The notes beneath the pieces were generated by a model, which was given only the letters and a program-made list of their open reading frames with translations, did no database searches and was not told the origin of the DNA. From Desulfuromonas sp. (GTDB lineage Bacteria; Desulfobacterota; Desulfuromonadia; Desulfuromonadales; Desulfuromonadaceae), in contig JAGGYC010000158.1 of assembly GCA_021162745.1 (NCBI GenBank), positions 1 to 43,477 of the forward strand: a DNA stretch of 43,477 nt, read 5' to 3'. Of the stretch, positions 12,362 to 43,477 are shown piece after piece. Numbering within the stretch: the stretch's first letter is position 1; each line of letters starts with the position of its first letter. Both the position numbers and the translations under genes were made by a program.

Positions 12362-14092
12362 TCAGACTGAACTCCCCCAGCCATCATCAGAAATTTGTGG
12401 CTGTGACATAACCGGTTGCATTCCGCCCTGACCATAATTTATTGGCGGAGCAGAAAAACCGGCCAAAGTAAATCCGGACAGCATATCGCGCATTTCAGCA
12501 GACTGCGCAGCCAGCTCTTCGCCGGTGGCTGCACACTGCACAGCGTTAGAGGTATTCTGTTGCGTGACCTCATCGATCTGACTCAGGCCGATGCTGACCT
12601 GAGAAATCCCCTGCGCCTGCTCATCGGATGAAGCGGCAATCTCACCGACCAGATCGGACACCTTACTGATACTCTGAACAATCTCGTCCAACGCGCCAGC
12701 GGTATTTTCAGCAATCACTGTACCATTGCTCGCCTTGGCCACCGAGCCTTCAATCAATGATGCCGTCTCACTGGCCGCCTTGGCGCTGCGTGCTGCCAGG
12801 TTACGCACCTCTTCAGCAACAACGGCAAAGCCCTTGCCGTGCTGACCGGCCCGCGCCGCTTCGACGGCGGCATTCAGGGCCAACAGATTGGTCTGGAAGG
12901 CAATTTCATCGATCACCTTGATAATACGTGAGATATCCTTGGCGCCCTGATTGATATCACCCATGGCCTGAACCATCTCCTGCATCTGCAGGTTACCCTT
13001 ATCGGCCACATCGCGGGCCTGACCGGCCAACTGATTCACCTGCACAGCATTGTCAGCATTATCCTTGGTACGTGAGCCCATCTCGACCATTGAGCTGGTG
13101 ATCTCTTCAAGGGAGCTGGCCTGCTCGGTCGCCGCCTGAGACATGGTCTGGCTGGCATCAGAGATCTGATCCGCCCCCGAAGCAATTTGCTCCGCAGCCA
13201 GTCGCACCTTCCCCATACTATCATTAAGAGCGGCATTGGCCTCAGACAGCGGCTCACGGATCAAGCCATGAGCCTCAAAGGTAAAATCACCATCAGCCAG
13301 CTTTTTAAATGCCGTAAGAATCTCATGCTGCAGATTATCGGCAAACGCATCCATGGTCGTTGCCATCTGACCAATTTCGTCGCTACGCTGCATATTCAAC
13401 CGCTGATCGAGCTGACCGCTTTCCAATGCTTTAATCATGGTGATCAATTTTTGTACCGGTTTGAGAATCAAGCCGCTGATCGCCAGCCAACAGATAATAA
13501 ATACAACAACCGCACCAGCAGCGCCGGTATAGAGGATCAGTTTAAGCATGCTGACCTTGCTGTGGGCATCCTGCTCGTACATCCCCACCGCCTTATTCAT
13601 CTGTTTGAGCAGGGTGACATTGTTATCGAGGACATGATTTAATGCGGCGGTAAAGGTCGGGCTATCAACAGCGTCACTGGCTATGCGCTGGATATTGGGA
13701 CGAAAGTCCTGCCACAATCCAGAGACCAGTTGTAACTGGGCTAGAATCTCCGTTTGGCTGGTCGCCGGAACACCTGACTGTGTATCACCGGAGAGCAAGG
13801 CACGTAACGACTCATCGAACAGCGCTTCGGTTTCCCGGAGACTCTGCCGATAGGCCGCAGCATTTTGTCCCGCCGCAATAGCCAATGCCTCCTTGCTCAT
13901 CTTCTGGGTGAGCATCCGCTGACGCCCGGCAATATTGATCACCGGAGCATCTTTTTCCTGATTGGCCAGAAAATACAGTGACGTACAACTGATGCCGATT
14001 GCCGTGATAACGGCCAATCCCACCAGCCCCAACAGAGTCGCCTTGATCCCCAATCCACTTACGTGTCGATTTCCAGCTGTAACAGTCGCCAT
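12362..14092 (-). CDS. Methyl-accepting chemotaxis protein with PilJ-type sensor domain
   Basis: This 576-residue membrane receptor signals to CheA/CheW. TM1 (about 17-40) is followed by a periplasmic PilJ/NarX-type four-helix sensor with the signature [20 protein letters not shown]2 (about 185-207), a HAMP domain with [17 protein letters not shown], and a long cytoplasmic signalling coiled coil follow. The hairpin tip [23 protein letters not shown] is intact in shorter pieces. The tail ends GWGSSV; a canonical CheR-docking NWETF is absent. The start is set at ATG 14092 with AAAGGG upstream; an in-frame TTG at 14113 is an alternative. No che genes are in the window, so its pathway is unknown. 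Confidence 0.93.
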
Positions 14093-14253
14093 ACGAACAG
14101 CACCCTTTCTCAACGAGATAATAAAAAACAGAAAACTGCACTACACCAATAATGATATCGCATTTAATGTGCGCTGCCTAAATTTAATATAGGGGAGGAT
14201 GGAGAACACTGCAAATGAAAAACACCGCCGCGTTCGCAGTAAAAAAACATGGG

Positions 14254-21661: not shown

Positions 21662-22333
21662 ATGAGTGGAAAACGGGAACAACACAAGCAACAGACTCGT
21701 CAGGCCATTCTAGATGCAGCACGGCTACTGTTTCCACAGCAGGGATTCGACCAGACGCGCATTGAGGATCTGGCCCGTCAGGCCCGGATCGGCAAGGGAA
21801 CCATCTACAGTTATTTTGACAGCAAAGAACAGATCCTGATTGAACTGCTGGCCGACAATCGGCTCCAGATCATGGATCAATTTCGCCAACAGAATGACCC
21901 ACAATCGACCGTGCCCCAGCAGTTGATGACCTTGTTTCTGTGCCAGTTTGACTTCTGCCGGCAGCATAAGGAACTGGCGCGACTGATGTTTCGCGAATCG
22001 ATGTTCCCAGCCCAGCCCACCATGGATCACCGCCACCAAGTGGATCTGTCCTATCTGCAGGCGGTGATGGAGATCCTGGCTACAGGCCAGAAGCGCGCCG
22101 AGATCGCTGCCGAACTCGACCTGCTCAGCGGTGCCATTGTCTTGCATGCCCACTACTGCATGGCGGTCTCCGGTTGGTACATCGGTTATTACGACAGCGA
22201 TCAGTTTACACACAACCTGCGTCAGCTGATCACCCTCGCCTTGAACGGCTACGCCGGAACGAACAGCCCGGAATCATCGCTTTCCAGCCCGCTCCAGATT
22301 GCTCAAATAAGTCCCACTACGGAGGCCCTATGA
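21662..22333 (+). CDS. TetR-family transcriptional repressor
   Basis: The 223-residue protein has an N-terminal TetR helix-turn-helix (about 12-60) with RIEDLARQARIGKGTIYSYF and DSKEQIL. The remaining helices form the ligand-binding and dimer part. GAGG lies 7 bases before the ATG. The stop overlaps the next start (ATGA), so the repressor is translated as the first gene of the pump operon. Two identical operator-like sites flank its promoter, suggesting autorepression that is relieved by a pump substrate. The inducer is not known. Confidence 0.93.
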   Translation: MSGKREQHKQQTRQAILDAARLLFPQQGFDQTRIEDLARQARIGKGTIYSYFDSKEQILIELLADNRLQIMDQFRQQNDPQSTVPQQLMTLFLCQFDFCRQHKELARLMFRESMFPAQPTMDHRHQVDLSYLQAVMEILATGQKRAEIAAELDLLSGAIVLHAHYCMAVSGWYIGYYDSDQFTHNLRQLITLALNGYAGTNSPESSLSSPLQIAQISPTTEAL

Positions 22334-23352
22334 TCCGCACCCTTTTCACGCTATGCCTATGTTTATCTCTTTGGATAAGCTCTGCTTGCCCGACCATGGC
22401 CACAACCGTTTCACCATTACGCGTGGAAACGGCCTTGCGCTCCGTCACCCTGCGCGGTTACAGTCGGGCACTCGCCTCAGCCAGCATAGCTGCCGAGGTT
22501 TCCGGACGGATCACATCCTTAAACTACGATGTCGGCAACACCATTAGCGTCCAACCGCTGCTACAGATCGACGCCACCTTCATCAATCTCGACCTGCAGA
22601 ATAATCACCTCGCCCTGGCACGTAACAACATCGCCCAACAACAGGCTCAATCCCGTCTGGAGTGGTTGGAAAAAGAATTTAAACGCCGGGCCGCCCTGAT
22701 CGAACAAAAGCGGATATCACAGGTGGTTTTTGAGGAGATCAGCCAACAACACGACCAGGCCGAGTTGGAATTACAACACCAGCAACAGCAGCAACGTCAA
22801 CTTGAAGTGCAGCGTCAGGTTTTGCGCGAACAACAACAGCGCCATGCTCCGCATGCCAGCAGCGGCTGGCAAGTCAGTAAACGCTATGTTGAATGCGGTG
22901 AGTGGGTCAAGGCCGGCAGTCTGTTGATGGATGTCGAAAACTATCAGCGCCTGCTGGTGCCATTGGCCGTGTCGGCAGCGGAACTTACAGCGATCAAGGG
23001 CCAGGACAACGCCACCCTCAATGGTCAACCGATCCACTATCGACTGCACACCGTCAGCCCGGCCTTTGATGAAAAGACCCGTAAGATTCAAATTGAACTG
23101 GAGGTCGTCGATTACCAAGGTGAAAAGCGTGGCGGCTTGTCTTTACAGTTGGCGCTGCTGCTGCCCGATGATGGCTTGATGATACCGGCCTCAGCAGTGA
23201 TAAACCGTTACGAGCGCCCTCAGGTACAGCTTGAGAATGTCGCGACACCAATCACCGTCCATATCCTCGGCACTCAAGGTGAGTGGCTGCGGATCGCTCC
23301 CCATGCTCAATTGCCAATTGGTACCGTTCTGATTCCGGCACGGAAGAATTAG
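22330..23352 (+). CDS. RND efflux membrane fusion protein (periplasmic adaptor)
   Basis: The 340-residue adaptor links the inner-membrane pump to the TolC-type channel. A signal peptide (about 1-25, ending CPTMA) is followed by the barrel-sandwich half SASIAAEVSGRITSLNYDVGN. A long coiled-coil hairpin (about 95-170), very rich in Gln, comes next, and then a beta-barrel domain. The start ATG overlaps the TetR stop and has GGAGG just upstream. An open frame extending to 22174 lies inside the TetR gene and is not used. The RND gene begins 4 bases after the stop. Confidence 0.92.
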   Translation: MIRTLFTLCLCLSLWISSACPTMATTVSPLRVETALRSVTLRGYSRALASASIAAEVSGRITSLNYDVGNTISVQPLLQIDATFINLDLQNNHLALARNNIAQQQAQSRLEWLEKEFKRRAALIEQKRISQVVFEEISQQHDQAELELQHQQQQQRQLEVQRQVLREQQQRHAPHASSGWQVSKRYVECGEWVKAGSLLMDVENYQRLLVPLAVSAAELTAIKGQDNATLNGQPIHYRLHTVSPAFDEKTRKIQIELEVVDYQGEKRGGLSLQLALLLPDDGLMIPASAVINRYERPQVQLENVATPITVHILGTQGEWLRIAPHAQLPIGTVLIPARKN

Positions 23353-23356
23353 TATC

Positions 23357-26300
23357 ATGAAAAACTTCATCAACCTCACCATCAAGCAGACTGTTTTCAT
23401 CAATGTGGTGTTCATCATCCTCATGGTGGGCGGGGTCTACAGTGTCTTTCACACCCCGGTGGAAAACCTGCCGCCGGTGGCCATCGGCAAGGTGTTTATC
23501 ACCACCGTTCACTACGGAGCCTCAGCCGAAGATATTGAACAGCTGGTCACCCGCGAGATTGAAGATGCCATCGACGGCCTGGAGAGCGTTGAATACGTTC
23601 AGTCGACCTCCATGCGCAATGTGTCATCAATTCTGGTCAAGTTTATCGACGACAGTGACTACCGCCACCTCTACGACGAACTGCGACTGCGGGTGCTCAA
23701 TATCCGTAACGAGCTGCCGGAAAATGTCGATGATCCGATTTTCATCTATCTCGACAGTCAGGAGTGGAAACCGGTGATCGTCGCCAACCTGACCGCCACC
23801 ACGGCCTCCGACCTCTCCAACGCCGGTCTAACTCTGCTGGCCGAGGAGTTAAAAAGCGATCTGCGCAAAGTCGACGGCGTGCAGGAGGTGAAACTACAGG
23901 GCGACTATCATCAGGAGTTTCAGGTTCAGCTCAACCCACAGCGGCTACGTGACCTCGGCGTCAGCTTTGCCGAGGTTGGTCAAGCCATCGCCGACGCCAA
24001 TGTTAAAGTCCCCAGTGGTCGCTACCGCCGGGGCGGACAGAACACCCTGCTCGATACCGGTTACACCTTTAATCAACAGCAGCAGGTACTGGATGTCGCC
24101 GTGCGGCGTGACGGCGACGGCAATTACATCCGCGTCCGCGATCTGGCCAACAGCGCCGGTCTCAGTTACCGCGACCCCGATATCATCTCCACCGTTAACG
24201 GCCTGAGTACCGTCAAGCTGAAGGTCAAAAAACAGGACAGCGCCAACGCCATCACCATCGCCGACCAGATCAAACAACAGGTCAGCGAATTTAACCGCCA
24301 TCATCAGCGCGACGGTGTGCGGACAGTATTGACCAACGATTCCACCATCGAAATCGACGACTCGGTACGCACCCTCGGTGGCAATATGGTGCTGGGGATG
24401 ATTTTGGTCACCCTAGTGCTGTGGATGACCCTGGGCTTTCGCAATGCCATGCTCACCGCCATCGGCATCCCGTTTTCGTTTCTGGTCACCATCATCATCG
24501 TCAAGTTCACCGGCCAGTCGATCAACACCATCAGCCTGTTCTCCTTCGTGCTGGTGTCGGGGATCATCGTCGATGATGCCGTCATCATCATCGAAAATAT
24601 CTACCGCCATCTCTATATGGGTAAGACCCGGCGCACAGCGGTGGTGGACGGGGTGAGCGAGGTCTTTCTCCCCGTAGTCAGCTCAGCCATGACCACCATC
24701 TTCGCCTTTATGCCGATGCTGATCATGACCGGCAGCACCGGCGACTTTTTCAGTGTCATCCCCAAAGCGGTCAGCTTTGCACTGTTTGCCTCACTGGTGG
24801 AGTCACTATTTATCCTCCCCGTGCATGTACTCGATTACGGTCCACGCCAGATGACGGCCAACCTGCATCCCGAAGGGGATTACCATCACCTGCAACAGGG
24901 GCCGTTTGCCCCGCTATGGAAGCTGTACCGTCGCCTGCTCAACCTGCTGCTGGATCATAAATTATGGGCCATTTCAGGGGTCACCGTGGTGTTTTTTACT
25001 GCATTAGGGATGATGGCATTGTCAGCCAGCGGCCGTATGCCGCTGATCAAGGTCAAATTTTATCAAGACAGCTACCTGCGCTACCATGTCGCGATGCAGA
25101 TGCCCACCGGCACCTCAGCGGAAGGAACCGATGCCGTGGTTCGCGAACTATCGCAGTACTTGGTCGGCCTTGGTCCGGGTGAGACCCTGTCCACCAGCGG
25201 CACGGCGGGAATGATGGAGGATCGTGACTATCAGGTGCATCGTGCCCAGCACTATGGTCAGGTGGTGGTGGAACTACCGGCCCAGGCCGACATGGCCCTG
25301 CCCACCGGCAACGACCAGATCCCGGCCTATATTGATCAGGTGCGTGAACAACTTGAAGCCTATGTTGCCGAGCACAACCAGAACTGGGCCGGCCGTCCAG
25401 AACTCAACGTATTTGGTGAGAATACCGGGCCACCGGCCGGTAAAGCGGTGAATATCCGCCTCACCGCGCCCAATATCGAAGCAGCCTTGGCGGTCTCTGA
25501 TAAAATGATGAACTACCTGCAAACCAATGAAGAATTTAAGGATCTGGTCAATCTCGAAGATAACCGTGCCGACATGCAATCGGTACTGGCCTTTGAGGTT
25601 CGACGGGAGCAGGCGTTGGAATACGGTCTCGGCAGTGGCGATGCCACCCGTTTGATTGCCGGTGCCCTGAACGGCATGCCCAGTGGCCAGTTCCGTACCA
25701 GCCGCGAAGAGATTGATCTGATGGTGAAACTGGCGCGGCAAGAAGACAGCGAGGGTAATACTGTTGGCAATGGCGGACTACTCAATCCCGAAGCGGTGGC
25801 GCAAATTCCGATCATCGAGCACAGTCGGCAACCGGTGCTGCTCGGCGACATCGCCAGCTTCAGCTATCGTCAGGAACCCGATGCCCGCACCCGCTATAAT
25901 GGTAAGCCGACCATCACCATCACCGCTGATGTCCGCGATGGCTCCACCCTGTCGTCGAGCCGGGTACAGGTATTGACTCAGCAGTTTTTTAACGGCATCA
26001 GTGATCAGCATCCCGGGGTGGGGATCGCCTTTGGCGGTGAGTTCGAAAGTACCTCGCGCGCCTATGCCTCGCTGGCAGCCGCCTTTATGATCGCCGTGCT
26101 GGCCATCTACCTGATCTTGGCATCGCAATTTAACGATTACGTGCAGCCGATCATCATTTTATCGGCCATCCCCTTCGCCTTTATCGGCGTGGTGTTCGGA
26201 CTGTTTTTTACCCGCTCGGTATTTACCATCGGCAGCTTTATGGCCGTGATTGGTCTGGCTGGTGTCGCCGTCAATGACTCGCTGATCCTCATCGACTTTA

Positions 26301-26632
26301 TGAATAAAGAGCGGCGGCGCGGCCTGCCGCTACGTCAGGCGGTGATCAACGGTTGTAGCGCCCGGATGCGACCGGTGTTGATCACCACCGTCACCACCAT
26401 GCTGGGGATGCTACCCATGGCCATCGGCATCCCCCACAAGTCGATCACCTGGGCCCCCATGGCCACGGCCTTTGCCACCGGCCTGGTCAGCGCCACCACC
26501 CTGGCGCTGCTATTGATTCCTGTGGAATACGAGCTGACGGAGATCGTTAAAGATAAACTGTCAAGCCTCGGCCATCGCCGCTTGCGACGCAAGGTTCGGA
26601 GAAATCAGCTCAAGGAGAATGGCAATGATTAA
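23357..26632 (+). CDS. RND-family efflux pump inner-membrane transporter (AcrB-like)
   Basis: This 1091-residue transporter has the RND layout of 12 membrane helices and two large periplasmic loops (about 35-330 and 570-880). The TM4 proton-relay aspartates are present in SGIIVDDAVIIIENI. In TM10 the usual AcrB lysine region reads GVAVNDSLILIDF, so the Lys is replaced; this places the pump in a divergent branch of the hydrophobe/amphiphile group whose substrates are poorly known. It is complete, with AcrB-like length. Its 3' end overlaps the TolC-family gene by 8 bases. Drug range cannot be predicted from sequence. Confidence 0.95.
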   Translation: MKNFINLTIKQTVFINVVFIILMVGGVYSVFHTPVENLPPVAIGKVFITTVHYGASAEDIEQLVTREIEDAIDGLESVEYVQSTSMRNVSSILVKFIDDSDYRHLYDELRLRVLNIRNELPENVDDPIFIYLDSQEWKPVIVANLTATTASDLSNAGLTLLAEELKSDLRKVDGVQEVKLQGDYHQEFQVQLNPQRLRDLGVSFAEVGQAIADANVKVPSGRYRRGGQNTLLDTGYTFNQQQQVLDVAVRRDGDGNYIRVRDLANSAGLSYRDPDIISTVNGLSTVKLKVKKQDSANAITIADQIKQQVSEFNRHHQRDGVRTVLTNDSTIEIDDSVRTLGGNMVLGMILVTLVLWMTLGFRNAMLTAIGIPFSFLVTIIIVKFTGQSINTISLFSFVLVSGIIVDDAVIIIENIYRHLYMGKTRRTAVVDGVSEVFLPVVSSAMTTIFAFMPMLIMTGSTGDFFSVIPKAVSFALFASLVESLFILPVHVLDYGPRQMTANLHPEGDYHHLQQGPFAPLWKLYRRLLNLLLDHKLWAISGVTVVFFTALGMMALSASGRMPLIKVKFYQDSYLRYHVAMQMPTGTSAEGTDAVVRELSQYLVGLGPGETLSTSGTAGMMEDRDYQVHRAQHYGQVVVELPAQADMALPTGNDQIPAYIDQVREQLEAYVAEHNQNWAGRPELNVFGENTGPPAGKAVNIRLTAPNIEAALAVSDKMMNYLQTNEEFKDLVNLEDNRADMQSVLAFEVRREQALEYGLGSGDATRLIAGALNGMPSGQFRTSREEIDLMVKLARQEDSEGNTVGNGGLLNPEAVAQIPIIEHSRQPVLLGDIASFSYRQEPDARTRYNGKPTITITADVRDGSTLSSSRVQVLTQQFFNGISDQHPGVGIAFGGEFESTSRAYASLAAAFMIAVLAIYLILASQFNDYVQPIIILSAIPFAFIGVVFGLFFTRSVFTIGSFMAVIGLAGVAVNDSLILIDFMNKERRRGLPLRQAVINGCSARMRPVLITTVTTMLGMLPMAIGIPHKSITWAPMATAFATGLVSATTLALLLIPVEYELTEIVKDKLSSLGHRRLRRKVRRNQLKENGND

Positions 26633-27902
26633 AATCGTTATCACCATACTGACACTGCTTGTGGTGTTGCACAGCAGCAGCGGGATACTGCATGCCGTCG
26701 AACTCAGTGAGGCGCAGCGGATCGCCTGCCTCTACTCCGATCAGGCACAGATCATTGCCGCCGAGCGCCAGGCCGATGACGCCGGTGCCCGCCGAACCAC
26801 GGCCTTTGCCCGACCACAGCTCAACGGTTATGCCAGCTGGTTCAAGATCGACAGTAACGACGACAATCCGCTGTTTGAGGTGCCAAAGCGTGAGTTAACC
26901 GCCGGCATCAAAGCCAGCCAGCTGCTGTTTGCCGGTGGCCGACTATGGCGCAGCAACCAACTGCGCGACAACCTGCACCAACTGGCCCAGCTGCAACAAC
27001 GCAGCAGCATCCGTGAGCTGGAACAGAGCGTCGCCCTGGCATTTATCGATGTCCAACGCCAACAACAGATTCACGCCATCGCCAGGGATCGTTTACAACA
27101 GCGCCAACAGGAACTGGGCGACGCCAGCGCCCTGTTTGAGGTCGGCAGTGTCCCGCACCTCGACGTTCGCGAGGCCGAACTCGCCGTCAAACAGGCCCAG
27201 AACGATCTGCAAACCGTTGACAGCGAGCTGTTTGTCGCCATCACCACCTTCAACCAACAACTGGGCCGCGCTGCCAACGAAAAACAGCTGACACCATCCG
27301 GCAACCTCGAACCACAGCCGATGATCGACACGCTGCTCATCACCCTGGCACAGCAGATCAACGCCAACAGCCAGCTTGATCTGCTCAGCAGCCGGACCAC
27401 CACCGACATTCGCCATCGTCAGCAGCAGATGGCCGCTGGAGAACACTGGCCCACCCTGGCCGTGGCCGCCAGTGGCGAAACCCAGGGGGAACAGCGCGAC
27501 GAGCTGGACGAAACCTGGACCATCGGCCTGCAACTGGACTGGACCCTGCTCAGCGGTGGTGAAATCCGGGCTAACAATGCCCAGGCCCACGCCGAAACAC
27601 AACGCGCCTACGCCAGTCAACAACAGACCTACAAACAGCTGTTGGCCTCTTTGGCAAACCTTGAGCAACAGCACAACGACCTGATTGAACAGATTAAACG
27701 TCAACAACAGGCGATCCAATTGGCCGACGCCAACTACGCCGATGCCCGTGCCCTGTACACCGAGGGGACCATCACCCTCACCCATCTGGGTCAGTTCAAT
27801 CTGGCCTATGCCGAAAGCCGCTTCAGCTTGACGCAGATGCTCTATGCCCATAATCGGCTGTATCACGAATTACGCGGTCTGGTCGAAGAACGGAACTTGT
27901 AG
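26625..27902 (+). CDS. TolC-family outer-membrane efflux channel
   Basis: The 425-residue protein has a signal peptide (about 1-22, ending LHAVE) and two structural repeats of long helices with short barrel strands, the TolC/OEP pattern. Examples are LSEAQRIACLYS with ARPQLNGYASW, and the second-half counterpart GEHWPTLAVAASGE. Glutamine-rich helices are prominent, as in the partner adaptor. The ATG at 26625 is preferred because AAGGAG lies 8 bases upstream; the ATG at 26619 is too close to it. It is the last gene of the TetR/MFP/RND/TolC operon, so all three pump parts are encoded together. Confidence 0.92.
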   Translation: MIKIVITILTLLVVLHSSSGILHAVELSEAQRIACLYSDQAQIIAAERQADDAGARRTTAFARPQLNGYASWFKIDSNDDNPLFEVPKRELTAGIKASQLLFAGGRLWRSNQLRDNLHQLAQLQQRSSIRELEQSVALAFIDVQRQQQIHAIARDRLQQRQQELGDASALFEVGSVPHLDVREAELAVKQAQNDLQTVDSELFVAITTFNQQLGRAANEKQLTPSGNLEPQPMIDTLLITLAQQINANSQLDLLSSRTTTDIRHRQQQMAAGEHWPTLAVAASGETQGEQRDELDETWTIGLQLDWTLLSGGEIRANNAQAHAETQRAYASQQQTYKQLLASLANLEQQHNDLIEQIKRQQQAIQLADANYADARALYTEGTITLTHLGQFNLAYAESRFSLTQMLYAHNRLYHELRGLVEERNL

Positions 27903-37689: not shown

Positions 37690-38076
37690 AGTAAATCTCC
37701 TCTAAATACGGCATAGGAAAATCAAAAAGGTCTGCCGTTGACCTTCACGCAATCGACAACCTGATATCATCAGAAAACCGGATATTCCAAGTATCGCGCT
37801 CGCGACATGAAAAAAGCCTACCGTGCAATCAACGTAAGTCAACAGCCGTTGCCAATCACCCAATAATCATATTTAAAAAGGCCGGTGCATCAAATGATGC
37901 AGCGGCCTTTTTGTTTCCAAGCTCTGTATTCAGACATCTACTTCAACGCCACAATCTTCTCCTGCCTGAGTTCAAACATAAGTCATCCGTAGATTTGACC
38001 CTTTTTTTATGGCGTGTGGCGGGCAGGCACCAGCCGCAGCCGGTGCAGCTGTCGCTGTCGATACTTATCTTATCCA
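37690..38076. other. Intergenic region with terminator and repeat-like tail
   Basis: This 387-base gap holds the promoter side of the zinc-ribbon gene and the terminator at 37875-37912. The minus strand at about 37969-38009 reads AGGGTCAAATCTACGGATGA, which resembles a dispersed extragenic repeat, although only from memory. A small minus frame (37943-38173) with CTGCGWC is not convincing. Confidence 0.45.
37875..37912. terminator. Bidirectional terminator
   Basis: AAAAAGGCC (37875-37883) pairs with GGCCTTTTT (37904-37912), and the inner TGCATCA-AA-TGATGCA extends the stem. It would stop the TonB/YfiR/GGDEF-EAL transcript. Confidence 0.85.
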
Positions 38077-40131
38077 TCAGACTGCAGCAGCACCACTGCC
38101 CACGCCGAGCAGGGCGCCAAACTGTTCGGCAGGCAGGGGGCGGGAGACCAGATATCCTTGTCCGTAATGACACTTGAGCTGATGCAGGAAATCAAGCTGT
38201 TCCTGAGTTTCAATCCCCTCGGCCAGCACATCGATCTTAAGGGCCAGAGACATGGAGATCACTGCTTTGGTGATGGCGGCATCGTCAGCATTGTGCAGCA
38301 CGTCGCGCACAAAGGAACGATCTATTTTCAGCTTGCTCAGCGGGAAACGCTTCAGGTAGCTCAGGGATGAGTAGCCGGTACCGAAATCATCCATGGCGAT
38401 CTCTACCCCCATGGCACTTAAGCGGTCCATGATCGAGATAGCCTTTTCAACATCTGCCATCAGCATGCTCTCGGTTATCTCAAGCTCCAGACAACTGGCC
38501 GGCAAACCGGATGTGCGTAATGACTCTTCAACATCCAGCAGCAGGTCAGAGGCGAACAGCTGGCGAGCAGAAACATTGACGGCCACGGTGATTGGCGGCT
38601 GTCCCGGCCGCTGCCAGTGGGTGGCCTGCCGGCAGGCCTGCTGCAGTACCCAGCGCCCGATGGGGACAATCAAACCGTTGTCCTCGGCAATGGGAATAAA
38701 CTCTACCGGAGAAACATAGTGGCCGTCCACCTGCCAGCGTAACAGTGCTTCGCAGCCACAGATGGTACCGGATTGCAGATCGAACTGTGGTTGATAATGG
38801 ATGCTTAATTCGTTGTTGGCCATGGCATTGTAAAGTTTATTTTCCATGTTGAAGCGTGAATGCAGCAGCGATGTCATGGCGGGCAGGTAACGTTGAGAAG
38901 CGTTGCGACCATTGTTTTTGGCGTGATACATGGCAACGTCGGCGTATTTGATCAATTCTACCGGTGTCGAACCATGCTGCGGAAAGCTGGATATCCCAAT
39001 GCTGGGAGTGATGATGACTTGCTTCCCCTGGAGCTCAACGGGCTCCTTTACCGCCTGCGATATTTTAGTAGCTATGTGCTCAATGTCGGACATATTGAGG
39101 CTGTCGAGCATGATCACAAATTCATCACCGCCGAAACGGGCGACGGTATCGTATTCACGTACAGCAGAGCGCAGCCGTGATGCCACGGTCTTCAGCAGTA
39201 TGTCACCGATGTCATGGCCCATGGTGTCGTTGATGTTTTTGAAGCGATCCAAATCCACAAACAGAATTGCTATTTCCAATTTTTCGCGCCGGGCTCGGGC
39301 GATCCCTTTACGCAGGCGATCGTATAGTAATATCCTGTTTGGTAACCCGGTCAGGGCATCGTGGGTGGCAAGAAAACGTAGATTCTCTTTCTGCTCTTCG
39401 AGCAGATTATCCTGCTGCTCAATTTTTTCCAGCATGGTGTTGAAACCGCTGCACAGTTGGCCCAGTTCCTCGTTGGTTTCGCTGTTTACACGCAGGGAGA
39501 GATCGTTGCTCTCCGATACCTTTTTCATGGTGGTAATGAGATTATGGATTGGTGCTGTTATGTGTTTTTGCAGCCGACTGGAAAAAAAGAAGGAAACAAA
39601 CAGGGCAAAACTGAATACTGCGCCCAAAAAGAGGAGAAAACGACTTTGGGCAGCACGGATATCGGAAAAATCGGCAACTATGACGAAATCACCAATGGTC
39701 TCATGATCGAGCACAATAGGTGTCCTGAGGTGGAACAACTCTGGCTTCGCTGTCACTTTATTGTCTGCTCGCGGCTGGTGTGGCAGAAATGCCGACAACA
39801 TGGACTGGGGAACGTCGGGGGCCAAATAGTTGGCAAAGATGTTGCCGTTTTTATCGAGCACCGATGCTGCGCGCACATTAGGTTTGGCGGCCAGAGAGCT
39901 CAGAAGAGTTGTTACCCCGTTTTTGTCGTCAAAGCTGAGTGCAGCTGTACATGAATCGCTGTAGATACGGCTGAGAGTGGCCAACTCTACCGTAGCTTCT
40001 TCTTTAATGACCTGATTCTGATGGATATAGTAGGCGATAGAAACGAGAGAAATTGTTATGGCTGTTACCGCTACAATGATGCTGTTGAGTTTGTAGCGTA
40101 AGGGTAAGTTTTTGATTGTTTTTTTTAACAT
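38077..40131 (-). CDS. Membrane c-di-GMP enzyme: CHASE8-like sensor, HAMP, GGDEF, EAL
   Basis: The 684-residue inner-membrane protein resembles YfiN with an EAL domain added. TM1 (about 17-36) and TM2 (about 165-185) enclose a periplasmic domain of the YfiN/CHASE8 type (EATVELATLSRIYSDSCTAAL). HAMP (about 186-240) leads to a GGDEF domain with an intact active site (GGDEF, 334-338) and inhibitory I-site RxxD (R325-D328). The EAL domain has EALLRW (E461), DDFGTGYSS, KIDRSF and EGIET, so both synthesis and breakdown of c-di-GMP are possible. The start overlaps the end of the YfiR-like gene by 7 bases. YfiR-like repression of the sensor is inferred. Confidence 0.92.
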   Translation of the reverse strand: MLKKTIKNLPLRYKLNSIIVAVTAITISLVSIAYYIHQNQVIKEEATVELATLSRIYSDSCTAALSFDDKNGVTTLLSSLAAKPNVRAASVLDKNGNIFANYLAPDVPQSMLSAFLPHQPRADNKVTAKPELFHLRTPIVLDHETIGDFVIVADFSDIRAAQSRFLLFLGAVFSFALFVSFFFSSRLQKHITAPIHNLITTMKKVSESNDLSLRVNSETNEELGQLCSGFNTMLEKIEQQDNLLEEQKENLRFLATHDALTGLPNRILLYDRLRKGIARARREKLEIAILFVDLDRFKNINDTMGHDIGDILLKTVASRLRSAVREYDTVARFGGDEFVIMLDSLNMSDIEHIATKISQAVKEPVELQGKQVIITPSIGISSFPQHGSTPVELIKYADVAMYHAKNNGRNASQRYLPAMTSLLHSRFNMENKLYNAMANNELSIHYQPQFDLQSGTICGCEALLRWQVDGHYVSPVEFIPIAEDNGLIVPIGRWVLQQACRQATHWQRPGQPPITVAVNVSARQLFASDLLLDVEESLRTSGLPASCLELEITESMLMADVEKAISIMDRLSAMGVEIAMDDFGTGYSSLSYLKRFPLSKLKIDRSFVRDVLHNADDAAITKAVISMSLALKIDVLAEGIETQEQLDFLHQLKCHYGQGYLVSRPLPAEQFGALLGVGSGAAAV

Positions 40132-40718
40132 TTCTCCCCCCCCAATACCTTCAGCGCCAGCATGTATACCTTGTAGCTCAGCTTTAGCCCCTGTCTCTCA
40201 ATGGCGGTGCGGTTGATGATGAAGCGCAGTTTGCCCTCCTTGATAGTCAACTCAATGCAGCCGCCGTGCTCAGCAAAGCCAGCTTTGTCGCTGATGGTCA
40301 GAATCGGCCTGCCCGCTACTTCCCGAAGGGTGGAAAGACACTGGTCACGGTTTTCGAGGGCGAGAAAGAGCATATCATAAGAACTGAGGTTGTCCCTGTC
40401 GGCGTCCGTTCTGTGTCGCGCCAGGACTATATGGCGCCCGTTCGCCAGTTTGTGTTCCAATGCTTCCAGACGGGTACCGAAGTTATCAGCTCCGATTACG
40501 GCTAAAAATAGCGGCTCAGTATTTGCGCTCTTAACTGCAGCCTGTGCAATTTGCTCCGGCCAGCTGGTAAATTTGATAAAATTGTAAATAAAGGCCGCTT
40601 TCAACTGATATTCATCGCTTTGCAGCTGTTCTGCTGCCGAGCTGGCAGATGTAGCACTCACCAGTGCCAGACAAATAAACAGTAGCGCCAGATATTGTTT
40701 TAAGCGTCCTGTATTCAA
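40125..40718 (-). CDS. YfiR-family periplasmic regulator
   Basis: The 197-residue protein has a signal peptide (about 5-30, KQYLALLFICLALVSATSAS) and the YfiR (DUF4154) pattern: YQLKAAFIYNFIKFTSWPEQ near the mature N-terminus, PLFLAVIGADNFG, and GGCIELTIKEGKLRFIINRT towards the end. In Pseudomonas, YfiR binds the periplasmic domain of YfiN and keeps it inactive. The start is probably TTG at 40718, with AGGAGG 5 bases upstream; the ATG at 40745 has no ribosome-binding site. It is followed, with overlap, by the YfiN-like gene and preceded by a TonB receptor. Confidence 0.9.
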   Translation of the reverse strand: MNTGRLKQYLALLFICLALVSATSASSAAEQLQSDEYQLKAAFIYNFIKFTSWPEQIAQAAVKSANTEPLFLAVIGADNFGTRLEALEHKLANGRHIVLARHRTDADRDNLSSYDMLFLALENRDQCLSTLREVAGRPILTISDKAGFAEHGGCIELTIKEGKLRFIINRTAIERQGLKLSYKVYMLALKVLGGEKC

Positions 40719-40785
40719 TACGCCTCCTGAGGTGACGTTATCCATCGGTTAGCAACCTTGTGTTGCTGTGTTTTGAGAACAACTG

Positions 40786-42816
40786 TCAATATTTATAGGT
40801 AAGACGTAACAGTACTCCCCGTTCACTGCGGGAAGATTGCATGCTGGACAATTCGGAATAGATCTCCTTGCTGTCGTCATGTAACAGATTGTGACCAATC
40901 AGCTCCAGTTCCCACTCGGGTTGCGGCTGCCAGCCTATGCGCAGTTGCATCTCCCAGCGCGGAGATATATCTTGAGATTTTATGCCATCATTGTAGGTCA
41001 GCCAGCAATCTGTCTGCCAGTTGCGGTTGATATTCAGCCGTGATTGCAGCGATAGATGATGCTGGGTGTAACGCTCGGGAACGGTGATCTCCTGAGCATT
41101 GCCTTGATCCAGATTCATATCCAGAAAACTGTAGGCCAGCAGCAATGACCACGTGGGGACAACCTGCCAGTTGGCAGCAACTTCCGCCCCGTAACTGTAG
41201 CCGGCAAAATTGTTATCAGCACCGTAATTGACAACATAGACCGGCTGACCGTCGATATTTGTGGCTGACGTGGCCTGTTGATGACCACCCTGTAGATTAT
41301 CGTAGTCATGAATAAACATGGCAATGTCACATGAAGCCGAGTTGTTGATGGCAAACCTGGTGCCGAGTTCCCAAGCTATCAGATCTTCTGAATCTATGTC
41401 ATGGTCACCCTGCAGGGTGACCATGGTTGGCCATGGCATCGGTGTCAGGGCAGAGGGTGGCTCAATGGACAGAATCAAACTGCCATTTTCTTCCACGTGG
41501 GACGGGGTGCGTACCGCACGTGATACAGCTCCCCACAGCGAGAGGCGCGGTGTAGCCTGCCACAACAGGCGCAGGTTTGGTTGCCACTCCCATCCGGTCA
41601 CTTCGTTGTGCTCACACTTGGTGCCCAGCGTCACGGTCAGATTCGACAGGATAGAATAATCGTCTTGAGCGAAAAAACTGAACAGATGGGCGTGGCTGTG
41701 CTCCGGGGTGATGTTGATCTGTCCCCGACGTGAGTGATAATAATCACGACTGATATCAATGCCACCACCCCAGGTAAGACGGTGGGCTGCCAGCGGTTGG
41801 CTGGTGTGCTGAATGTCAAGATCGTACTGTTGCAGACGCTGGTCGTAGAGCCATTCGTGGCGTGAACTGTAATCGTAATAGAGCTGGATATCAAGGGTTG
41901 ATGTGGGTCTGAAATAGTAGCTGTAACGGCTCTGAATGTGGCCTCCGCTGAGGTCAGCGTCATCAATCAACGGGCAGATATAAGGTGCTGTCGGCTCTAT
42001 ACTGTTGTAGGTAGTAGATTCACGCCCCTGATAATAGCTTGCCGTGGTGTGCAGAGCATAATTGCTGCCGTGATTATCCCAGCGTAAGCCGATCCGCCCC
42101 TGAGTGGTGTCATCGCCGTTGCCCTCTCCCTGTAATGACCCCTGGTCCCGCTCCAGTCCCCGCAGGGACAGACGCAGCGCATTAGCCTCGTTTGGCTTGA
42201 TGGTTTTGAGCACACTGATGCCGGAATGCTTTTTTAAGCCTACCCAGCCGGTTATCTGGTCGGTGCTGTTTTCCAGGGTGGTACTGGTGATAATATTTAT
42301 TACCCCGTTGACGGCGTTGGCACCCCATAGCGCTGCCCCCGGTCCGCGTACAACCTCTATCCGTTCAATCTCCTCAAGGGAGACATCCAGCGTGTCCCAG
42401 TAGGTGCCGGAAAAAGTTGGCGTATATATGCTGCGTCCGTCAATCATAACCAACAGCTTGTTGGCTGTCTGGCCATTGAAACCGCGTATGGTTACTGCCC
42501 AGCGATTAGCGTCCAGTTGCGCGACCTGTACTCCCGACACCATGCGTAATACTTCGGGGATGTTGCTGGCTCCACTGCGATGGATATCTTCACGGCTGAT
42601 GACTGCTACTGCCGCTGCGGTTTTCATCAGACTGGTTGGTGTTTTGCTGGCCGAACTTACCTGGATGTTGAGAAGATCCTCAAAGTCCATATCAAGCAGA
42701 TCGTTGGCGAAAACGGGAGAAACAGATAATAAAAACAAGGTGATTACACAGAGAGTGGGCACAGACCGCAATGATCTGCGCCATATCCCGGCAGAGAAGT
42801 GGTTGTGATCAAGCAT
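40786..42816 (-). CDS. TonB-dependent outer-membrane receptor
   Basis: This 676-residue receptor has a signal peptide (about 12-38, ending SPVFA). The N-terminal DLLDMDFEDLLNIQV segment is followed by a plug domain with IPEVLRMVSGVQVAQ, WAVTIRGFNG and IERIEVVRGPGAALWGANAV, and then a 22-strand barrel ending LLRLTYKY. The ATG at 42816 follows GGAAAGG; an in-frame extension to 42888 is less likely. It heads an operon with the YfiR-like and GGDEF/EAL genes, a context that suggests a sensing rather than a purely nutritional role. The ligand is unknown. Confidence 0.92.
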   Translation of the reverse strand: MLDHNHFSAGIWRRSLRSVPTLCVITLFLLSVSPVFANDLLDMDFEDLLNIQVSSASKTPTSLMKTAAAVAVISREDIHRSGASNIPEVLRMVSGVQVAQLDANRWAVTIRGFNGQTANKLLVMIDGRSIYTPTFSGTYWDTLDVSLEEIERIEVVRGPGAALWGANAVNGVINIITSTTLENSTDQITGWVGLKKHSGISVLKTIKPNEANALRLSLRGLERDQGSLQGEGNGDDTTQGRIGLRWDNHGSNYALHTTASYYQGRESTTYNSIEPTAPYICPLIDDADLSGGHIQSRYSYYFRPTSTLDIQLYYDYSSRHEWLYDQRLQQYDLDIQHTSQPLAAHRLTWGGGIDISRDYYHSRRGQINITPEHSHAHLFSFFAQDDYSILSNLTVTLGTKCEHNEVTGWEWQPNLRLLWQATPRLSLWGAVSRAVRTPSHVEENGSLILSIEPPSALTPMPWPTMVTLQGDHDIDSEDLIAWELGTRFAINNSASCDIAMFIHDYDNLQGGHQQATSATNIDGQPVYVVNYGADNNFAGYSYGAEVAANWQVVPTWSLLLAYSFLDMNLDQGNAQEITVPERYTQHHLSLQSRLNINRNWQTDCWLTYNDGIKSQDISPRWEMQLRIGWQPQPEWELELIGHNLLHDDSKEIYSELSSMQSSRSERGVLLRLTYKY

Positions 42817-43477
42817 GAAGGAAACCTTTCCACGAAACGCACTGAGTTGGCATACCGCAGTGATCAGTCTGATTAAATATTTGTACATTTTAAGAAGAGT
42901 AGATCATGGGCGGGTAAAGTCAACATCGAGGTATCAGATGGCAGGTGATTCGCATTAGTTGCGCAGATCTTTTTTTCCGGGAGTGGTAGTTACTGCTTGC
43001 TGTGCTACACATTAAAGCGATCATCGGAGCGTTGTTGGCAAATCTCATCGGCACTGGCTTTGAGCCAAACCTGAAGAACTGCCTTCAACGTGGTCAAACT
43101 TTGCGATATACGGGCAATACTGTGATTCAGGGTCGGACCAAGCTATCTAACTGATTCTCAGTTTCCTTAAAGCAGGCTTTTTAGCCCCCAAAAGGTTCAT
43201 CTAAGGCGAAAAAACATGCTTGCTTTGCTGTTAATCGTTTTATTTCAATCAGTTACCTTGGTCCGATCCCGTTATTTCTCAACAACAGCAGACAACGGTT
43301 CAACCAACTGCAGGGGACTGATAAATCCCCCCTGAAAAGCTTTTCAGCATTGTCGTCATTATTTTCTTCGTGCTAGTGTAGAACACAGTTCTAAACATTG
43401 GAAAGACCCTGAGAGTTGAAGCGTTTACTGCAAGTGGCCCTTTAATTGCCGAATATTTCACACAGGTCTGAAGTATG
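42817..43477. other. Gene-free right end
   Basis: This 661-base stretch includes the leader of the TonB receptor gene and then sequence with no convincing coding frame. On the minus strand a short frame at about 43010-43130 reads SLTTLKAVLQVWLKASADEI, possibly the tail of a mobile-element protein, but I could not place it. The inverted repeat at 43131-43269 is listed separately. Confidence 0.4.
43131..43269. repeat. Inverted-repeat element, about 139 bp
   Basis: TCGGACCAAG (43133-43142) pairs with CTTGGTCCGA (43257-43266), and the inner AACTGATT (43149-43156) pairs with AATCAGTT (43247-43254). The nested arms suggest a MITE-like element or a long hairpin. No coding sequence lies inside. Confidence 0.55.

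Follow-up and report, generated by a model that had tools for sequence, protein, structure and literature searches.

The YfiBNR (TpbB) system of Pseudomonas aeruginosa and the HmsCDE system of Yersinia are the closest described counterparts of a three-gene operon found in a 43,477-nucleotide stretch of DNA from Desulfuromonas sp. (contig JAGGYC010000158.1 of assembly GCA_021162745.1; the whole stretch is referred to here as the window). Like the window operon, these systems contain a YfiR protein and a CHASE8/PAS-HAMP-GGDEF protein, with a conserved Phe/Leu patch on YfiR and an AAVVF-type motif in YfiN. Unlike them, the window operon encodes a TonB-dependent receptor instead of YfiB and carries an added EAL domain in its enzyme, and its YfiR has neither the Cys145-Cys152 disulfide nor Pro178 (YfiR positions follow P. 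aeruginosa numbering, with contact residues taken from PMC3375315 and PMC4887326). YfiR-YfiN has been described as a modular core whose distant members lack yfiB and have the GGDEF domain replaced by GGDEF-EAL, HPt or kinase domains, and YfiB-less YfiNR pairs were reported to include those of Geobacter and Desulfobacterium (Malone et al., 2012; PMC3375315). The main text of that study makes no mention of TonB receptors, YfiB exclusion or a docking helix. NCBIfam holds curated models for a TonB receptor (NF053590, TOL_0244), a YfiR-like protein (NF053591, TOL_0243) and a YfiR-associated kinase (NF053592, HK_near_YfiR_like). The gene order and reciprocal linkage of TOL_0244/TOL_0243 are also seen in the window system, although none of the three scores of the window proteins reaches its cut-off (503/645, 101/125 and 149/194 bits, respectively) and the output of the window system is a GGDEF-EAL protein rather than the kinase of the NCBIfam set.

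TonB-dependent transducers such as FecA-FecR and PupB-PupR are similar in that a TonB receptor uses its N-terminus to signal to a protein of the inner membrane (PMC7186176), but the window operon has no STN domain, anti-sigma factor or sigma factor, and instead has a short helix and YfiR. TOL_0244 of Thalassolituus oleivorans, a member of the same family as the window receptor, was found to be sevenfold upregulated on n-C28 and shows 40.3% similarity to OmpS of Alcanivorax dieselolei, a reported alkane sensor that triggers chemotaxis (PMC6304351); the likeness to the window receptor is one of family. A literature search, which left most subscription journals outside its reach, returned no paper on a TonB receptor with YfiR or DUF4154 as a signaling arrangement. 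PA2072 (CHASE4-GGDEF-EAL) was considered as a precedent and set aside, as no YfiR or TonB partner is described for it. YfiB-less YfiR-YfiN pairs, GGDEF-EAL and kinase outputs (Malone et al., 2012) and the NCBIfam TonB/YfiR/kinase models are already known, whereas the change of the YfiR surface, the YfiR-linked receptor helix, the same helix on PF13557 barrels, and the stalked YfiR-kinase fusions described below are new.

The window operon is proposed to be a three-layer envelope relay, in which a helix of the receptor would dock on YfiR and YfiR would control the enzyme, a reading to which a probability of roughly two in three (0.66) is assigned. The relay is supported by gene order, domain content, motifs, linkage, exclusion of YfiB, a lost YfiB signature on YfiR, and the occurrence of the helix in two unrelated barrel families. 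All three genes lie on the minus strand. The first encodes a TonB-dependent receptor of 700 aa (positions 40786..42888) that consists of a Plug domain (Pfam, 9e-25) and a barrel (TonB_dep_Rec, 2e-24) only; no STN signaling domain was found in it by Pfam. Position 42816, taken as the boundary in the original prediction, is an internal ATG of this frame and probably the true start, because GGAAAGG lies just upstream of it and the resulting signal peptide is better. The second gene, 40 bases downstream, encodes a YfiR-like periplasmic protein of 206 aa with a signal peptide (40125..40745). The third encodes an inner-membrane YfiN-like CHASE8-HAMP-GGDEF-EAL protein of 684 aa (38077..40131), and it overlaps yfiR by exactly 7 bases (40125..40131); short overlaps recur in relatives, and the overlap probably reflects translational coupling. 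Neither FecR-type anti-sigma nor extracytoplasmic function (ECF) sigma genes are part of the operon, and no OmpA motif of a YfiB-type lipoprotein was detected at the locus, where the TonB receptor is found instead (OmpA and helix detection relied on simple patterns).

The enzyme matches Pfam CHASE8 (2e-14), HAMP (4e-8), GGDEF (2e-50) and EAL (3e-72), and its residues 9-405 match NCBIfam YfiN (PRK09966, 1.7e-85). Hydropathy places two transmembrane helices at about residues 18-36 and 165-183. The RxxD inhibitory (I-)site and GGDEF motif are intact (REYDTVARFGGDEF, from residue 325), as are the EAL motifs (EALLR at 461, DDFGTGYSSL at 581, K602 and E638); the I-site points to feedback on the cyclase by its product. 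The AALSF motif of the window CHASE8 domain corresponds to YfiN AAVVF, including the Phe, which is invariant in 15/15 YfiB-type and 131/131 TonB-type proteins. The original prediction of three same-strand genes with a 7-base overlap, a YfiR-type protein, and a YfiN-like enzyme with both catalytic sites intact therefore stands, borne out by coordinates, Pfam and NCBIfam matches, the motifs, and the structural matches of YfiR given below.

The arrangement is not confined to this genome. The search for YfiR covered three genome sets: 98 genomes from the order, of which 28 gave a match; 395 from the phylum, of which 68 did; and 398 from a second phylum, the one to which the proteobacterial locus L068 belongs, of which 94 did. 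Further loci were found in Planctomycetota, Oligoflexia, Rokubacteria, Spirochaetia and anammox genomes, and on two Pseudoalteromonas megaplasmids, one of which is publicly annotated as TonB receptor, YfiR and EAL protein. Within a set that is widespread in Desulfobacterota and Pseudomonadota, the window operon is a divergent member; L094, a GGDEF-EAL relative from the same order, exceeds the NCBIfam receptor and YfiR cut-offs. The neighborhood search proposed with the original prediction revealed conserved co-occurrence. Of the YfiR loci, 162 were fully flanked; among these, 127 have a same-strand TonB receptor within 3 kb, 12 an OmpA-type YfiB, and none both. This mutual exclusion gives a Fisher p of 2e-9 for sequences that are not independent, and such p-values are overstated because many loci are related. 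Linkage is also reciprocal, and the subfamily of the window receptor is almost never found without YfiR. Across the 98 genomes of the order, 43 receptors score above 270 bits to NF053590; for 39 of them, a YfiR is encoded no more than 2.4 kb away, and the remaining four are partial matches whose contigs yielded no YfiR. Receptors of the next tier (160 bits and less) are unlinked to YfiR, with one exception. In the source genome (2.9 Mb in 163 contigs), the window receptor scores 503 bits and the next-best receptor 135. With about 10 TonB plug genes and a single YfiR gene in a genome of this size, the adjacency is far above chance.

The output, in contrast to the input, appears to be exchangeable. 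The TonB-bearing loci have a kinase in 93 cases and a GGDEF-EAL protein in 15, whereas the 14 GGDEF-only enzymes of this set all belong to loci that lack a TonB receptor, 12 of which have YfiB. In the CHASE8 tree, 15 classical YfiN proteins are split from 151 others with full support, and the best tree requires about 10 changes involving GGDEF-EAL among these 151, of which well-supported branches force only two. Together, partner counts and tree indicate a stable input with a swapped output. The original prediction of a cyclic di-GMP (c-di-GMP) signaling system may apply to the GGDEF-EAL output of the window, but the input is not specific to c-di-GMP, since most relatives have a histidine kinase and GGDEF-EAL proteins are a minority.

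The window YfiR matches PF13689 (DUF4154, 'YfiR/HmsC-like'; 2.3e-34), and its AlphaFold model (mean predicted local distance difference test score, pLDDT, of 84) has P. aeruginosa YfiR crystal structures as its best structural matches (TMt 0.75-0.84), including YfiB-YfiR complex entries. The residues that contact YfiN are retained across the set (Phe162 in 89%, Leu183 in 73%, and hydrophobic residues at 151 and 160), and the window YfiR has Phe162/Ile169/Leu183-type residues. The YfiB-facing side is different: Pro178 together with the Cys145-Cys152 disulfide is present in 15/15 YfiB-type YfiR proteins and 0/130 TonB-type proteins, which mostly have Ser-Ser/Ala at 177-178 and Phe at 144. In the window YfiR, Cys145/Cys152 are replaced by A/E and Pro178 by Tyr; with Tyr at both 178 and 181, this YfiR is itself unusual. 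Loss of the YfiB-side signature with the YfiN side kept is as predicted by a switch of the outer-membrane partner. Adjacency is not interaction, and a TonB receptor is missing from the vicinity of some YfiR-kinase loci; the receptor could then be a co-regulated target, with the YfiR-enzyme pair, like YfiB-less systems, sensing redox or envelope stress. This is the least probable of the alternatives weighed here, given a receptor subfamily that is dedicated to YfiR and mutually exclusive with YfiB, and the absence of the redox-linked Cys145-Cys152 pair in all 130 TonB-type proteins.

The same fold raises a second alternative, which is unlikely but the strongest of the competing accounts. The receptor may be a plain importer, with its plug, barrel and TonB-box-like segment, and YfiR a substrate-binding protein whose liganded form acts on the enzyme with no need for receptor docking. 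The YfiR fold resembles ATP-binding cassette (ABC) substrate-binding proteins (5z6v and 3lft rank behind the YfiR matches), and the YfiB pocket of P. aeruginosa YfiR is a binding site for vitamin B6 and Trp (PMC4887326). However, the pocket residues of the YfiR examined here differ from the P. aeruginosa set, and two further findings given below, the helix shared by unrelated barrels only when YfiR-linked and the long stalk of fused YfiR beside helix-bearing receptors, would be left unexplained by import.

The docking element proposed for the envelope relay lies at the N-terminus of the receptor. YfiR-linked receptors have a common short segment between the signal peptide and the plug, with the consensus DL..LSLEELM.IEVTS and a near-invariant Leu in 156 of 160 aligned receptors (a profile-based count, used in preference to pattern searches that gave 33/159, which was too strict, and 109/159). 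In the window receptor, this segment is NDLLDMDFEDLLNIQV (residues 62-77; 42658..42705 on the minus strand), in which the near-invariant residue is Leu72 and which leads straight into a TonB-box-like VSSAS. In the AlphaFold model of the receptor, which shows plug and barrel, a short helix at 69-73 precedes the plug. In five genomes, the receptors that are unlinked to YfiR proceed from the signal peptide to the TonB box (for example, EVIVTAE) and lack the helix. The profile alignment of YfiR-linked receptors starts at position 1-5 in all cases, and that of unlinked ones at 7 or later. The helix is probably the docking site for YfiR. A pairing of a receptor-helix Phe with the Tyr residues at YfiR 178/181, seen in the window and one relative, was discarded as evidence because the wider pattern is confined to clades. 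The position of the helix directly ahead of a TonB-box-like VTSAS stretch would also suit an extended TonB box or a plug element, with the receptor signaling by other means. This is distinctly improbable, as the unlinked receptors have TonB boxes without the helix, and YfiR-linked barrels that have neither plug nor TonB box nevertheless carry it.

These barrels belong to three YfiR loci without a TonB receptor, in which a smaller PF13557-related barrel lies 120-138 bases upstream of YfiR (L069:4694-5959, L260:3769-4860 and L288:5546-6604). Those of L069 and L288 were assigned by Pfam, and that of L260 is 51% identical to the L288 barrel. In all three, a receptor-type segment directly follows the signal peptide (DLTKLTLEELMKIDV, MADLSLQELFAL and MADLSLQDLYAM), and the adjacent YfiR proteins have the TonB-type signature, at least in part. 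The segment is absent from 14/14 PF13557 barrels unlinked to YfiR. A motif scan of all frames of 218 loci recovered it in TonB receptors, the three barrels, and two chance-looking frames of more than 150 aa; the scan is not fully independent, because the motif was picked after the receptors and first barrels had been seen. As these barrels have no plug or TonB box, binding of the segment to YfiR would be its simplest explanation.

In seven genes, YfiR is joined to a histidine kinase and CHASE8 is absent (L153:5699-8338, L307:3624-5603, L308:4854-6800, L309:3549-5612, L310:3588-5558, L311:4854-6656 and L312:2976-5618). Their layout comprises a signal peptide, YfiR, a stalk of 156-183 residues, one transmembrane helix, and the kinase. 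The coiled-coil-like stalk is enriched in E/K/Q/R/D/N and nearly devoid of Pro and Gly; as one continuous helix it would measure 23-27 nm, about the width of the periplasm. A TonB receptor with a recognizable N-terminal segment adjoins four of the seven fusions. This architecture suggests that YfiR can itself be the sensor tip, held at the outer membrane, and that a signal can be passed on through binding to YfiR as well as through its removal from CHASE8. A broader possibility, with chances that seem evenly balanced, is that YfiR acts in the periplasm as a general adaptor, recognizing a portable N-terminal docking helix of TonB and PF13557 barrels and relaying the state of the barrel to c-di-GMP enzymes or histidine kinases.

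For the window operon, the relay would run as follows. Periplasmic YfiR would hold the CHASE8 domain of the enzyme in one state by gripping the Phe patch of AALSF, as in P. aeruginosa YfiR-YfiN, and the outer-membrane receptor would give the input that YfiB gives in the classical system. Ligand binding to the receptor would release its N-terminal segment to the periplasm, and freeing of the N-terminus by ligand is established for TonB receptors in general. The freed amphipathic helix, with Leu72, may then dock on YfiR and shift it on, or take it off, the CHASE8 Phe patch. The HAMP-GGDEF-EAL output would change as a result, with the balance of c-di-GMP synthesis and breakdown shifted in either direction. 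The placement of the TonB receptor in the role of YfiB, as originally predicted, is well supported indirectly by the exclusion counts, the dedicated subfamily, the lost YfiB signature, and the helix that tracks YfiR.

Several observations weigh against the relay. Covariation analysis (mean-field, reduced alphabet) of TonB receptor-YfiR (171 pairs) and YfiR-CHASE8 (186 pairs) gave top inter-protein scores no higher than those of permuted pairings. The helix at 69-73 is modeled with low confidence, and because it abuts the TonB box, conservation on the receptor side may partly reflect TonB binding. The barrel control consists of three loci only. Finally, a same-strand partner of either kind is lacking at 23 YfiR loci, some of which have a partner on the opposite strand or a PF13557 barrel.

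Other YfiR contexts were also encountered. Genome G591 has seven YfiR genes in differing contexts (L224, L230, L231, L232, L240, L241 and L312), several of them with a TonB receptor but no adjacent CHASE8 protein. At L294:5603-6352, a LuxR-type autoinducer-binding regulator immediately precedes a YfiR gene with neither a CHASE8 nor a TonB partner. An apparent TonB-YfiR fusion (L104:5107-6480), in which the plug is in frame with YfiR and most of the barrel is missing, was attributed to a deletion or an assembly error and rejected, and the long YfiR frames of L088, L122 and L127 were dismissed as high-GC frame extensions. Elsewhere in the window, a bidirectional terminator-like hairpin (inverted repeat I2; 37875..37912) lies about 165 bases downstream of the operon. 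A 25-base imperfect inverted repeat (43130-43154 and 43245-43269, 90 bases apart) lies upstream of it and is not multicopy in the genome, where one 34-base partial match was found. The window also encodes a chemotaxis transducer with a PilJ-type N-terminal domain (12362-14113) and a resistance-nodulation-division (RND) efflux cluster of HlyD-type adaptor, AcrB-family pump and outer-membrane efflux protein (22174-27902).

What would a docking helix mean for this family? Detailed knowledge of how outer-membrane receptors feed second-messenger and two-component networks is limited to sigma-factor cell-surface signaling and YfiB. If the docking helix is real, about 15 residues would suffice to identify hundreds of uncharacterized TonB receptors as sensors, and it would become possible to predict what many orphan kinases and GGDEF-EAL proteins respond to. 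A peptide and a point mutant would then allow a direct test of YfiR input outside YfiB systems. If YfiR is indeed a general adaptor, there would be a widespread route of outer-to-inner-membrane signaling beside the STN/FecR route, and in its single-chain forms a stalk spanning the periplasm would keep YfiR close to the outer membrane.

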